Shown here: piece after piece, positions 136 to 5,802 of the stretch
How positions within the stretch are numbered: position 1 is the stretch's first letter
Layout of the letters: every line of letters begins with the position of its first letter
From: Flavobacteriales bacterium
Lineage (GTDB): Bacteria; Bacteroidota; Bacteroidia; Flavobacteriales; Flavobacteriaceae
Length of the DNA: 43,782 nucleotides
Assembly: GCA_027065715.1 (NCBI GenBank)
Contig: JAMONO010000049.1
Span: 1-43,782, forward strand
Reading direction: 5' to 3'
Notes under the pieces: model-generated
Seen by the model: the letters and a program-made list of their open reading frames with translations, nothing else
The model's database searches: none
Told to the model about the DNA's origin: nothing
Position numbers and translations under genes: made by a program

Positions 136-660
136 ATGAAAATAAAACTTTTTATTACCGATATAGACGGTGTGTGGACTGACGGAGGAATGTATTACGG
201 CGATTCGCCCGAGTGTGAAATGAAAAAATTTAATACGTCCGACAGTGCCGGTGTGCTTTTTTTAAAATTGGCAAAAATAAAAACCGCCATTATAACAGGT
301 GAAAAAAGCAAAACGGTTCAAAGAAGGTATCTAAAACTCAAAATGGACGAACTTTTTATGGGGGTATCCGATAAGGTAACTGCTGCCGAATTTATTAAGA
401 ACAAATATGCTTTGACATGGAACGAAATAGCTTATATCGGCGATGATATCAATGATATTTTGTTGCTTAGAAAAGTGGGATTGAGTGCTTGTCCTTCATC
501 TGCCGAAGATTATATCAAAAAAGAAGTGGATTGGGTCTTGAGCAAAAAAGGCGGTGAAGGTGTTTTTAGAGAATTTGTTCAAAAATACTTACAACACGAA
601 AATATGTTGAAAGAAATTATCGACCGGTATTTATTCCAAATAGAAAACGAAAAAAAATGA
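136..660 (+). CDS. KdsC/CMAS-C-type HAD phosphatase, probable nonulosonate-9-phosphate (or KDO-8-P) phosphatase
   Basis: HAD motifs FITDIDGVWTDGG, AIITGEKS and IGDDINDILLL. The ORF track starts at 25, but the conserved protein begins at MKIKLFITDIDG (ATG at 136), and a TAACTTTG element lies at 111-118. The stop overlaps the next gene by 4 nt (ATGA). Confidence 0.8.
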   Translation: MKIKLFITDIDGVWTDGGMYYGDSPECEMKKFNTSDSAGVLFLKLAKIKTAIITGEKSKTVQRRYLKLKMDELFMGVSDKVTAAEFIKNKYALTWNEIAYIGDDINDILLLRKVGLSACPSSAEDYIKKEVDWVLSKKGGEGVFREFVQKYLQHENMLKEIIDRYLFQIENEKK

Positions 661-2411
661 AAAAAATAGCAATAATACAAGCCCGCATGCTCAGTAGCCG
701 GTTGCGGGGCAAGTCATTAATGTCTGTCAATGGCATACCGTTGTTATACAGGGTTATCCAATCCGTAAAAAATATCGGTATATTTGATGATATAATTGTA
801 GCAACAACCCGATTTGTAGCTGATGACCCGATAGAAGCGGCTTTGAAGGATTTTGCGCCCGGTGTTAAAGTTGTCCGAGGCGACTCGCAAGATGTTTTAA
901 ACCGGTTTGCCGAAGCCTTGCATAATTATCACGAAGAAGATATCTTAGCCCGTTTTACTGCTGACAATCCTATTTATAACAAACAAATTACCCGTTCGGT
1001 TTTCGATTTGCATCAAAAACAATCGGCGGATTATACCTATATTGACGGATTATCACCTCTGGCACCCGAATTTTTAAAAGTAGGTTTGATAAGAGAAGCC
1101 AATCGATTAACACAAGACGAGTTTGACCGTGAGCATGTTACGCCTTTTTTTAGAAAAAATGCTCAAAACTATAAAATCATAAAATTGCCAAAAAACTGGA
1201 AAGATTTGCGTCCCGAATTAAACCGATATTTGACAATTGATACCCGCGAACAGCTCGAAATCATCGAAAAAATGATGAAAACTTTGGATTTTGATACCCG
1301 TTCGCCTTATTTGAAAGATATTTATGATTTTTTGGAACGGGAAATCAAACCGGAAATATCCCGAAACAAATTTCATGTCTTGTTGGACGGAACACCCGTT
1401 GGCGAAGATTTACCTGCTTATATTGTTGCCGAAATTGGACAAAATCATAACGGAAGTATCGATTTGGCTAAACAATTAATTGATTTGGCGGTCGATGCCG
1501 GTGCCAATGCCGTAAAATTTCAAAAAAGAGACATGTCCTCGGAACTAACCAAAGCCGCTTTTGATAAACCTTACGATAATCCGAATTCGTTTGGAAAAAC
1601 CTACGGTGAACACAGATTGGCTTTGGAATTGAACGAAGAACAACATAAAGAATTAAAAGAGTATGCCCAAGCCAGAGGTATAACCTACTTTGTTACGCCA
1701 ACCGATATTCCTTCGGTTGAAATGATGGAACGTCTCGATGTCCCTTTTTACAAAGTTGCTTCGCGCGATCTGACCAACTTGCCTTTATTGAAACGACTCG
1801 CAAAGACCCGCAAACCCGTTATTATTTCAACCGGTATGGCAAGCCTCGAAGATATTGACGATGCTTTGGAAATCTTGGGTAAAGACAGAAAAGATATTAT
1901 TATTTTGCAGTGTATCTCTCAATATCCCGCCGATTTGGAACGGGTTAATTTGAAAGTGATGGATACGCTAAAACAAAAATACGGCAAAATTACCGGTTAC
2001 TCCGATCATACAACCGGTATGGTTGCAGCGGTAACAGCTTCGGTTTTAGGTGCTTCTGTTATTGAAAAACATATTACTTTAAATAAAGCCATGAAAGGCA
2101 GCGACCATGCAGGAAGTGCCGAAAAAGATGAATTTATGCAAATGATCAAATGCATCAGAGATGCGCGAAAAACTATCGGCGACGGAATTAAAACCATTGA
2201 CCCTGTTACCCAAGCCGCCAAAGAAAAATTGGCTCGTAGCCTGGTTAGTAAAATACCCATAAAGAAAGGAACCGTTTTGACCGAAGATATGCTTGTGTTA
2301 AAAAGTCCCGGAACCGGATTAAAATGGAAAGAAAAAGATATGATTTTGGGTAAAAAAGCAATTGTGGATATAGAAGCGGATGTAACTTTGCAAAAGAATT
2401 TTTTTGAATGA
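657..2411 (+). CDS. Fusion protein: N-terminal SpsF/NeuA-type cytidylyltransferase plus C-terminal NeuB-type nonulosonate synthase with SAF domain
   Basis: Residues 1 to ~235 start IAIIQARMLSSRLRGKSL, typical of the CTP_transf_3/SpsF family. From ~253, PAYIVAEIGQNHNGS...ANAVKFQKR...PTDIPSVEMMERL...STGMAS...GYSDHT...EKHITLNK is NeuB. The C-terminal IPIKKGTVLTEDMLVLKSPGTGL is SAF. Confidence 0.88.
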   Translation: MKKIAIIQARMLSSRLRGKSLMSVNGIPLLYRVIQSVKNIGIFDDIIVATTRFVADDPIEAALKDFAPGVKVVRGDSQDVLNRFAEALHNYHEEDILARFTADNPIYNKQITRSVFDLHQKQSADYTYIDGLSPLAPEFLKVGLIREANRLTQDEFDREHVTPFFRKNAQNYKIIKLPKNWKDLRPELNRYLTIDTREQLEIIEKMMKTLDFDTRSPYLKDIYDFLEREIKPEISRNKFHVLLDGTPVGEDLPAYIVAEIGQNHNGSIDLAKQLIDLAVDAGANAVKFQKRDMSSELTKAAFDKPYDNPNSFGKTYGEHRLALELNEEQHKELKEYAQARGITYFVTPTDIPSVEMMERLDVPFYKVASRDLTNLPLLKRLAKTRKPVIISTGMASLEDIDDALEILGKDRKDIIILQCISQYPADLERVNLKVMDTLKQKYGKITGYSDHTTGMVAAVTASVLGASVIEKHITLNKAMKGSDHAGSAEKDEFMQMIKCIRDARKTIGDGIKTIDPVTQAAKEKLARSLVSKIPIKKGTVLTEDMLVLKSPGTGLKWKEKDMILGKKAIVDIEADVTLQKNFFE

Positions 2412-2550
2412 AAGGAAAATAATTAATATTTTTCGGTTAATTTTTTACTTTAAATCTAAAAATAATCACCAATTGACCAATTTTAACAGATTTTTATAAA
2501 CTTACCGATTGCAATTTTTTACTTTTATAAGCAAATCAAAGATTTGTCTT

Positions 2551-5500
2551 ATGAAAAAATATATTTTGACTGCTTTTATCGGCGTATTTTTTTTGTTTTC
2601 GGGACGAGGACAAAATTCTGAAAATCTTTCAAAACTTTTAAAAGGAGTATCTATGCGCAATATCGGTCCGGCTTTTATGTCGGGGCGAATTGCCGATATC
2701 GCCATTCATCCCGAAAATCCTCATATTTGGTATGTAGCCGTAGGTTCGGGGGGTGTTTGGAAAACCGAAAACTCGGGCACCACTTGGCAGCCTGTATTTG
2801 ACCGACAAAAATCTTATTCGATAGGTTGTATAACAATTGACCCCAACAATCCGCATACCGTTTGGGTAGGAACCGGTGAGAACGTAGGAGGGCGACATGT
2901 GGGTTTTGGCGATGGAATTTATGTTTCTTATGACGATGGAAAAACCTGGCAAAATACCGGTTTAAAAAAATCGGAACACATATCGGAAATCATAGTGCAT
3001 CCGGACAATTCCGATATTATTTATGTCGCCGCCCAAGGACCGCTATGGTCCCCCGGAGGACAACGGGGTTTTTATAAATCTTCCGACGGAGGAAAAACAT
3101 GGAAAAAAACTCTGGGAGACGATATGTGGACAGGAGTTACCGATATAGCTATTGACCCGCGTAATCCCGACCGAATTTATGCTGCAACTTGGGAACGACA
3201 TCGCACTGTTGCCAACTATATGGGTGGCGGACAAAAGACAGCCGTTTACCGTTCGGAAGACGGAGGTGAAACCTGGAAGAAAATCATGAAGGGTATTAAC
3301 AGTAATAAAAACGGGAAAATAGGTATTGCCGTATCACCCGTTAATCCCGATGTTATTTATGCCGCCGTAGAACACAATCGCCGCAAAGGAGCTGTTTACA
3401 AATCGACCAATCGGGGCGAAAGTTGGGTAAAACAATCAGATGCCGTATCGGCAGCCACAGGCCCGCATTATTATCAAGAATTATACGTTAGTCCGCATCG
3501 TTTTGACCAAATTTATTTAGCCAATGTTCGTATGTTGGTTTCAAACGATGGCGGCAAGCACTTTATTCAAATGAAAGAAACTCATAAACATTCCGATAAT
3601 CATGTGTTAAAATTTAGAAAAGATGACCCCGAATATATGTTGGTAGGAACAGACGGCGGTTTATACGAGAGTTTTGACGGAGGTAAAAATTGGCGATTTA
3701 TCAACAACTTACCCGTAACCCAGTTTTACAAAATCGCTTTGGACGATACACAACCGTTTTATTATGTTTACGGTGGCACACAAGACAACAGTACGGAACG
3801 CGGTCCTTCGCGAACAGACAATTTGCACGGCATTGCCAATCGCGACTGGGAAGTGGTTTTATTTGCCGACGGACATCAACCGGCTACCGAACCCGGCAAT
3901 CCCGATATTGTTTATGCCGAATGGCAAGAAGGAAATTTGGTGCGAAAAGACATGAAAACCGGCGAAATGACTTATATTCAACCGCAACCGGCTGCCGGTG
4001 AACCTTTTGAACGCTTTAATTGGGACGCTCCTATATTGATAAGTCCCCACAATCCTCAACGAATTTATTACGCATCTTATCGGGTGTGGCGCTCCGATAA
4101 TCGCGGCGATGATTGGACAGCTGTATCGGGCGATTTAACTCAATATGATGAACGTTTTGATAAACCTATTATGGGCAAAAAACAAAGTTGGGATTCGCCT
4201 TGGGACGTTTATGCCATGTCCACCTTTCATACGATTACTTCTTTGGCAGAATCGCCCTTGCAAGAAGGTTTAATATATGCCGGAACCGACGACGGACTTA
4301 TTCAAGTAACAGATAACGGAGGTAAAACCTGGCGCAAAATACTAGTCAGTCAATTGCCCGGCGTACCCCTTCATGCTTTTGTCAATGATATTAAGGCGGA
4401 TTTGTTTGATAAAAATACCGTTTATGTAGCACTCGACAATCATAAAGAAGGTGATTTTACACCTTATCTTTATAAAAGTACCGATAAAGGAAAAACCTGG
4501 ATAAAAATTACGGGTAATTTAACCAAACCTTTGATTGTGTGGCGTTTGGTTCAAGATTATAAAAATCCGGATTTGTTGTTTATAGGAACGGAATTCGGCA
4601 TTTATGTCAGTGTAAACGGCGGAAAAAAATGGCATAAACTCAATACGCAAGCCAACATTTCTTTTCGTGATTTGGCTATAAAAAAAGACTATGACGATTT
4701 GGTAGGAGCAAGTTTTGGTCGTGGTATTTTTATTTTTGACGACTACGGTTTTTTGCGTGACATAACCTCCGAAAATTTAAAAAAACAAGCGGTTCTTTTT
4801 AAACCGCGTAATAGTTGGTGGTATTTTCAACGAGGTATATTGGGACGTGAAAAAAAAGGTAGCCAAGGAGCCGGTTATTTTTTGGCTCCCAATCCGCCAT
4901 ACGGAACTACTTTTACCTATTATTTGAAAAATACTTACAAGTCTTTGAAACAACAAAGACAAGACCAAGAACGAAAACGTGAAAAACAGCAGCTAAGTAT
5001 CGATTTTCCCGGGTGGGACAAATTAGATGAGGAAATGAACGAAGAAAAAATTAAAGTTTTTGTAAATATTTTGGGACAAGACAATCAAATAATAAATCGA
5101 ATTATTGCCAAAAATCAAAAAGGTTTTCACAGAGCAACTTGGAACCATACGCATTTTTCAAAATCACCTGCAATGCGTTCGCACGGAGCGGGTCAAAACG
5201 GAGGTGTGCGTGTTGCTCCCGGAACCTATGGTGCATATTTGAGTGTGGTGTTACCAAACGGAGAGGAACAAATTTTGTCTGATACCGTTTCATTTAAGCT
5301 AAAAAGATTGTATAAAGGAAGTTTAAAAGGAAAAAATCTAAAAGAAGTTACAACTTTTTGGCAAGAAGTTGACGATTTGCGTAGTCAAATCAGACTGTTG
5401 GATAAGGATTTTGACAGGCAAAAGAAAGCGTATGAAATAATGAATGAAGCTTATTTTAGGGCTCGTAAAAATGATGCAAGTATATTGAAAACATTGCGCA

Positions 5501-5802
5501 ATCTGCATAAAAAAATGTTAGCCTTGGAAAAACGTTTGACGGGTAGTCCGGCAAAAAACGAAGTAGGTGAAAAAAATATGCCGGGCTTGTTTTATCGATT
5601 GAACAAATTAAACATGAATACGCGTATGTCGTCATACGGACCTACCGGCACCGATTTGAAAACTTTGAAAATAGTTCGCGATGAATATCAAAACGTAAAA
5701 AATCAGTTACAAATCAACCGAAAGCAATTAGTTCAATTGAAGAAACGAATGACACAACTCGATATTCCGTTGATTGATATGGAATTGTGCCCGAAACCTT
5801 AA
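2551..5802 (+). CDS. Secreted VPS10/sortilin-like BNR-repeat (beta-propeller) protein
   Basis: Signal peptide MKKYILTAFIGVFFLFSGRGQ; repeated SxDGGKTW/SEDGGETWKK BNR motifs; NIGPAFMSGRIADIAI N-terminus. Start moved from 2509 to the ATG at 2551. Confidence 0.85.
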   Translation: MKKYILTAFIGVFFLFSGRGQNSENLSKLLKGVSMRNIGPAFMSGRIADIAIHPENPHIWYVAVGSGGVWKTENSGTTWQPVFDRQKSYSIGCITIDPNNPHTVWVGTGENVGGRHVGFGDGIYVSYDDGKTWQNTGLKKSEHISEIIVHPDNSDIIYVAAQGPLWSPGGQRGFYKSSDGGKTWKKTLGDDMWTGVTDIAIDPRNPDRIYAATWERHRTVANYMGGGQKTAVYRSEDGGETWKKIMKGINSNKNGKIGIAVSPVNPDVIYAAVEHNRRKGAVYKSTNRGESWVKQSDAVSAATGPHYYQELYVSPHRFDQIYLANVRMLVSNDGGKHFIQMKETHKHSDNHVLKFRKDDPEYMLVGTDGGLYESFDGGKNWRFINNLPVTQFYKIALDDTQPFYYVYGGTQDNSTERGPSRTDNLHGIANRDWEVVLFADGHQPATEPGNPDIVYAEWQEGNLVRKDMKTGEMTYIQPQPAAGEPFERFNWDAPILISPHNPQRIYYASYRVWRSDNRGDDWTAVSGDLTQYDERFDKPIMGKKQSWDSPWDVYAMSTFHTITSLAESPLQEGLIYAGTDDGLIQVTDNGGKTWRKILVSQLPGVPLHAFVNDIKADLFDKNTVYVALDNHKEGDFTPYLYKSTDKGKTWIKITGNLTKPLIVWRLVQDYKNPDLLFIGTEFGIYVSVNGGKKWHKLNTQANISFRDLAIKKDYDDLVGASFGRGIFIFDDYGFLRDITSENLKKQAVLFKPRNSWWYFQRGILGREKKGSQGAGYFLAPNPPYGTTFTYYLKNTYKSLKQQRQDQERKREKQQLSIDFPGWDKLDEEMNEEKIKVFVNILGQDNQIINRIIAKNQKGFHRATWNHTHFSKSPAMRSHGAGQNGGVRVAPGTYGAYLSVVLPNGEEQILSDTVSFKLKRLYKGSLKGKNLKEVTTFWQEVDDLRSQIRLLDKDFDRQKKAYEIMNEAYFRARKNDASILKTLRNLHKKMLALEKRLTGSPAKNEVGEKNMPGLFYRLNKLNMNTRMSSYGPTGTDLKTLKIVRDEYQNVKNQLQINRKQLVQLKKRMTQLDIPLIDMELCPKP

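Follow-up and report, generated by a model that had tools for sequence, protein, structure and literature searches.

The gene pair analysed here raises two questions: which sugar it serves, and how its enzyme steps are shared between two proteins, the longer of which appears to skip the middle step of a pathway whereas fusions usually join consecutive steps. The window (i.e., the whole stretch of DNA analysed) is the entire contig C49, 43,782 nucleotides long, of the 2.2-Mb draft genome G000 (G, C and L labels denote genomes, contigs and loci, respectively); it starts 135 bases 5' of a HAD-family phosphatase gene, with sequence further upstream lying outside the contig. The two overlapping genes most likely encode the last three enzyme steps toward an activated nine-carbon, sialic-acid-like sugar, KDN, and we assign a probability of roughly 0.7 to the reading in which they provide the last three steps to CMP-KDN and a fusion of single origin joins steps 1 and 3. 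Specifically, the NeuB plus SAF half of the fusion would condense mannose-6-phosphate (Man-6-P) and PEP to KDN-9-phosphate (KDN-9-P), the separate HAD protein would take off the phosphate, and the cytidylyltransferase half would activate KDN with CTP to CMP-KDN, which is probably destined for a surface polysaccharide. Domains, catalytic motifs, the gene pair and clades are read from the sequence, and we infer the substrate, the product, its use and any complex.

Two overlapping genes with three predicted functions

A sequence-only reading of this DNA had described a two-gene, three-function module with a cytidylyltransferase-NeuB-SAF fusion, and this description holds (Table 1). Within the single open frame, a Pfam search, which had been proposed as a check of each half, placed CTP_transf_3 at residues 4-206, NeuB at 274-512 and SAF at 527-580, all above the Pfam cut-offs. 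The junction, previously put at about residues 235-252, agrees with a fast-changing linker, and each of the three domains retains its catalytic motifs, the loss of which had been named as refuting. The ATGA overlap of the two frames was likewise confirmed, and it suggests that their translation may be coupled. A frameshift, an assembly artefact or chance could be ruled out because the fusion was found again in independent genomes, including three more from the genus, where the HAD gene lies upstream of, and overlaps, the fusion. The next gene (2509-5802) has, by eye, no apparent relation to the pathway.

Table 1. Features of the gene pair in the window, and fusions at other loci
Feature	Position	Strand	Evidence or remark
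KDN-9-P phosphatase (HAD, 174 aa), predicted	136..660	+	ATG at 136, TGA at 658-660
Cytidylyltransferase-NeuB-SAF fused protein, 584 aa	657..2411	+	Single open frame (ATG at 657, no internal stop); Pfam domains; recurrence in other genomes
ATGA overlap, phosphatase stop and fusion start	657..660	+	Sequence; G697 and G696 likewise overlap by 4 bases
Cytidylyltransferase half, residues 1-225, SpsF/KdsB-like fold family	657..1331	+	CTP_transf_3 94.4 bits
Variable inter-enzyme linker, residues 226-252	1332..1412	+	Identity between fusions 19-56%, vs 53-94% in the flanking domains
NeuB synthase barrel, residues 253-516, with KRD...SFGKTYGEHR stretch	1413..2204	+	NeuB 278.8 bits
SAF (antifreeze-like) domain; Ser550 at the Neisseria NeuB Arg314 position	2205..2408	+	SAF 34.4 bits
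Second fusion copy, G000 contig C40	L003 8427-10169	-	74% identical overall to the window copy
Reverse fusions	L050 8051-9811, L051 5638-7302, L053 6040-7713, L141 10256-11920, L144 3025-4689, L167 4841-6517		NeuB-like domain, then cytidylyltransferase; 554-586 aa

The phosphatase

The shorter frame is, by predicted activity, a KDN-9-P phosphatase: it passes NF058599, the NCBIfam equivalog of that enzyme (212.4 bits, cut-off 180), and its best solved relative is 3e81, i.e., BT1713 (E 6e-47). In the alignment it keeps the HAD catalytic motifs as well as the counterparts of Glu56 and Lys67 in BT1713, which we take to be specificity residues (in the BT1713 variant 4hgq, Ala takes the place of the Glu). 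The motif FNTSDSAGV, which the sequence-only reading had noted in place of the DG-G pattern of KdsC and regarded as nearer to KDN-9-P phosphatases, reads FNTSDSAGI in BT1713 and MHTKDGFAI in the genome's own KdsC-like protein.

That the protein might instead be a plain KdsC acting for KDO, its overlap with the fusion being incidental, is very improbable. While it passes the broad KdsC-phosphatas subfamily model (137.8 vs a cut-off of 106.95), it fails the KdsC equivalog PRK09484 (128.5 vs 208); further, the genome encodes a separate KdsC-like protein (C8), which lacks both the Glu and the Lys, and a KdsB-like cytidylyltransferase (C175), so the phosphatase is present besides, and not as, the KdsC-like protein, and KdsC identity was rejected. 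The pairing with the fusion is also conserved: a gene of the KDN-9-P phosphatase family adjoins the fusion in the window, G697, G694, G696 and G999, and lies 0.6 kb off in G288. The neighbour of the G878 fusion is a HAD protein outside this family; there (L164 6567-9118) the fusion comes first and the HAD gene overlaps it by 4 bases, as if the phosphatase had been swapped for another kind.

The synthase half

In the alignment, the NeuB half keeps Glu259, Lys287, Lys366, Ser369, Asp371, Ser391, Tyr423, Ser449, His451, His472 and Asp483, which we assign to the sites that bind PEP, metal and sugar in the Neisseria enzyme. In a careful tree of 73 proteins (BT1714 is not among them), the NeuB halves of the fusions form a clade (95/78) that is sister to, not inside, a clade of 34 KDN-operon-type synthases (100/100), with a joint support of 100/97 and a long branch (1.24) between the two, and NeuB, PseI and the other synthase types fall outside the joint clade, the PseI type far away. 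That is, the tree, which had been set as a test, groups the NeuB half with synthases of KDN-9-P phosphatase operons and not with NeuB or PseI. Fourteen alignment columns, several of them in the KRD...SFGKTYGEHR stretch, are shared, with few or no exceptions, by 35 fusion and operon rows and are rare elsewhere. Where Neisseria NeuB has Arg314, which presumably contacts the N-acetyl group, 5/5 fusions and 30/30 operon synthases have Ser, as opposed to Arg in 28 of 37 others; the most distant fusion, that of G878, retains the motif and yet carries Arg at this position. The 9-phosphate route suggested earlier is supported by the grouping, the 14 shared columns and the Ser for Arg.

Over-cut-off KDN-9-P phosphatases occur in 20 of the 396 genomes of the class sample, and the best 14 unfused matches to the NeuB half in this sample all come from such genomes, where they share a phosphatase neighbourhood (mostly cytidylyltransferase-NeuB-phosphatase operons). 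Neither synthase model was passed, TIGR03569 (N-acetylneuraminate synthase) being the best at 335.6 vs a cut-off of 399.65, and TIGR03586 (pseudaminic acid synthase) reaching 262.4 vs 340.25 bits.

The likely sugar

The final sugar, left as unknown by the sequence-only reading, need not stay fully open. The catalytic domain of mannose-6-phosphate isomerase (PMI; PF20511) is encoded in all five fusion genomes checked (the PF01238 profile, which describes the C-terminal domain, gave no PMI match), NanE exceeds its cut-off in none of these five draft genomes, and the sole over-cut-off UDP-GlcNAc 2-epimerase of the window's genome is of the non-hydrolysing wecB type and adjoins a UDP-sugar dehydrogenase-like gene. 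Because of this gene content, Man-6-P is likely on hand, ManNAc or ManNAc-6-P has no visible source, and KDN is the likeliest sugar, a best guess that depends on genes being missing from draft genomes. The characterised KDN-9-P synthases of B. thetaiotaomicron and P. parvum use Man-6-P (PMC6200933), and animal synthases take either Man-6-P or ManNAc-6-P, according to a table quoted in the same paper.

Alternatively, the same 9-phosphate route might start from ManNAc-6-P, as in the animal enzyme, and end at CMP-Neu5Ac, which we consider unlikely. The dual substrate use of the animal synthases would agree with it, as would the rank of TIGR03569 as best, if unpassed, model and the fact that the NeuB half of the fusion lacks an insertion present in the operon synthases and retains Gln289 in place of their Thr, but NanE is over the cut-off in 0/5 fusion genomes, wecB is the only over-cut-off epimerase, Ser replaces the presumed N-acetyl-contact Arg, and the phosphatase passes the KDN-9-P cut-off. 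Hence, we favor KDN. Counted against the main reading as a whole were the sister-only placement of the NeuB half, the non-orthologous cytidylyltransferase, the presence of both cytidylyltransferase kinds in G288, the Arg of G878, and a second fusion copy (on contig C40) with no adjoining phosphatase.

The cytidylyltransferase half and the order of steps

The CYTIDYLYLTRANSFERASE half (cytidylyltransferase half) keeps the QARMxSxRLxGK, TADNP and TIDT motifs in alignments with 6oew and KdsB. The cytidylyltransferases of the fusions and those of ordinary KDN operons form separate clades (each 100/100), and orthology of the two is not borne out by this tree; G288 carries both the fusion type and the operon type, the latter adjoining its phosphatase. 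Because the subfamily differs from that of the ordinary KDN operons, we infer KDN activation by this half from the fusion and from its position in the gene pair. It is conceivable, although improbable, that this half acts on a substrate other than the product of the NeuB half, with the fusion serving regulation or stability only. The separate clade and the additional operon-type enzyme beside the G288 phosphatase would fit such a division; however, the catalytic motifs are kept, and cytidylyltransferase and synthase genes adjoin in unfused operons too, which argues for consecutive use of the two enzymes.

If the two halves indeed catalyse steps 1 and 3 of the CMP-KDN route, the intermediate would have to leave the fused protein and come back, by free diffusion or inside a complex, since step 2 belongs to a separate protein from the overlapping gene. 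With steps 1 and 3 joined, the fusion alone would offer no direct site-to-site hand-over, unless the phosphatase docks or the cytidylyltransferase takes the 9-phosphate itself. The earlier suggestion that the fusion would couple synthesis and activation should thus be read as co-production rather than channelling, given that dephosphorylation intervenes. A doubtful variant is that the fusion acts as a scaffold, with the phosphatase docking between the domains and KDN-9-P channelled apart from the cell pool. If so, the first and third steps would have been fused to build a channelled nonulosonate pathway, and the replacement of one whole domain in the second copy (below) would show that the halves are exchangeable as units.

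Distribution and origin of the fusion

The fusion is rare. Including the window's own genome, it occurs in 4 of the 13 genus genomes (one is cut by a contig end yet spans the junction), 2/301 of the family sample, 2/396 of the class sample and 4/396 (about 1%) of the phylum sample; further fusions come from a second genus of the family and from two additional families. The genus-mates G520 and G690 have an unfused three-gene operon instead. A scan of genome contigs with a single fusion protein returned one distant Clostridiales locus only, and no fusion was seen in the phages searched. Some candidates were rejected: near full-length matches in G123, G684 and G676 are split by a stop codon into adjacent genes, and plasmid matches are about 35% identical and in two pieces, the annotated ones being pseI plus a neighbouring gene.

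In both trees the fusion halves form a single clade with no unfused member seen, for which reason the fusion appears to be old, to have a single origin, and to have been sparsely retained or passed around. Most simply, it would have arisen once, from a cytidylyltransferase gene located 5' of a synthase gene. Recent origin from an ordinary KDN operon via loss of a stop codon was ruled out, despite the abutting genes of such operons, since both halves belong to clades apart from the operon enzymes.

A second, probably recombinant copy

The second fusion in the window's genome belongs to a polysaccharide cluster of low GC content that also encodes a flippase, a glycosyltransferase, a Gfo/Idh protein and a PtmA-like SDR, and no phosphatase stands beside it. 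Its two halves differ in relatedness, the cytidylyltransferase half sharing 60% identity with the window copy and 63% with G288, and the NeuB half 86% and 71%, respectively. Where the two domains meet, third-position GC rises from 0.20 to 0.38 (codon-shuffle p ≤ 5e-5), a step with no comparable counterpart in the window copy, G697, G694 or G288, and base composition of the cytidylyltransferase half resembles that of the surrounding cluster, while that of the NeuB half resembles a neighbouring core gene and the window copy. Because of this shift at the boundary the copy is likely recombinant, the simplest reading being that an imported fusion had its NeuB half replaced from a resident copy. Since it is not accompanied by a phosphatase, it presumably shares that of the window. 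A 533-546-aa protein, possibly a transferase, is common to both fusion-holding polysaccharide clusters (L040 15877-17478 and L003 4983-6623; the L003 copy had no Pfam or NCBIfam match).

The neighbours of this copy raise the possibility, to our minds quite a slim one, of a different nonulosonate, with the SDR and Gfo/Idh proteins supplying or modifying an unusual sugar and the window pair making a related product. Gfo/Idh and PtmA-like SDR genes are immediately 3' of the C40 fusion, and in G999 the fusion, the phosphatase and a related Gfo/Idh are consecutive genes; yet no such Gfo/Idh or SDR was found in the stretches read of the window, G697, G694, G696 and G288, and the C40 NeuB half is nearly the same as that of the window.

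Comparison with known systems and related architectures

A close parallel to the predicted KDN route is the KDN pathway of B. thetaiotaomicron (BT1713, KDN-9-P phosphatase; BT1714, KDN-9-P synthase), which has the same phosphatase family; the synthase half belongs to the sister clade of phosphatase-adjoining operon synthases, BT1714 itself being outside the comparison. In the window, however, the synthase and the cytidylyltransferase are fused, and the latter comes from another subfamily. Unfused operons of Bacteroidia (e.g., G520, G690) have the same three functions, with the cytidylyltransferase gene just 5' of NeuB and abutting or overlapping genes, but encode three proteins, have the phosphatase last rather than first, and draw their NeuB and cytidylyltransferase from other clades. 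A NeuB-family synthase and a putative cytidylyltransferase also serve one pathway, to legionaminic acid, in B. subtilis SpsE/SpsF (PMC7439481), although these are separate proteins for a 6-deoxy sugar, with no 9-phosphate and no phosphatase. A CTP_transf_3-HAD fusion (L009, Clostridiales) and animal CMAS also fuse two of the three activities, but join phosphatase-type and activating domains, whereas the window protein joins synthase and activating domains. The reverse fusions of Table 1 hold both domain families in one protein, like the window fusion, but in the opposite order, with a diverged NeuB domain that lacks SAF, and the architecture is not homologous.

We found no described synthase-cytidylyltransferase fusion in the literature, of which our coverage is partial; the biochemistry is known, and the fusion architecture and its separate clade are, as far as we found, undescribed. 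A natural nonulosonate synthase-activator fusion with a matched phosphatase might serve as a compact one-pot tool for making CMP-KDN.

Several other architectures were seen along the way. The reverse fusions lie near a KDN-type synthase and phosphatase. At L059 (5811-7238), a HAD phosphatase is fused 5' of a NeuB synthase (475 aa), joining steps 1 and 2. NeuB plus SAF is fused to a xylose-isomerase-like TIM barrel at L056 3632-5893, L057 1253-3508, L147 6866-8761 and L058 3351-5243 (Pfam was run on L056 and L147), with a CBS domain ahead of the fusion in L056. Small reading frames between or near pathway genes (L042 8771-9091; L040 6113-6472 and 9607-9879) look, by eye, like a GxxExxY protein and four-helix-bundle (S23-like) proteins. 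Finally, L170 844-2331 (contig C131 of the window's genome) encodes a NUDIX domain fused to phosphomannose isomerase (495 aa), and G697 has a similar gene about 4 kb upstream of its own phosphatase-fusion pair.
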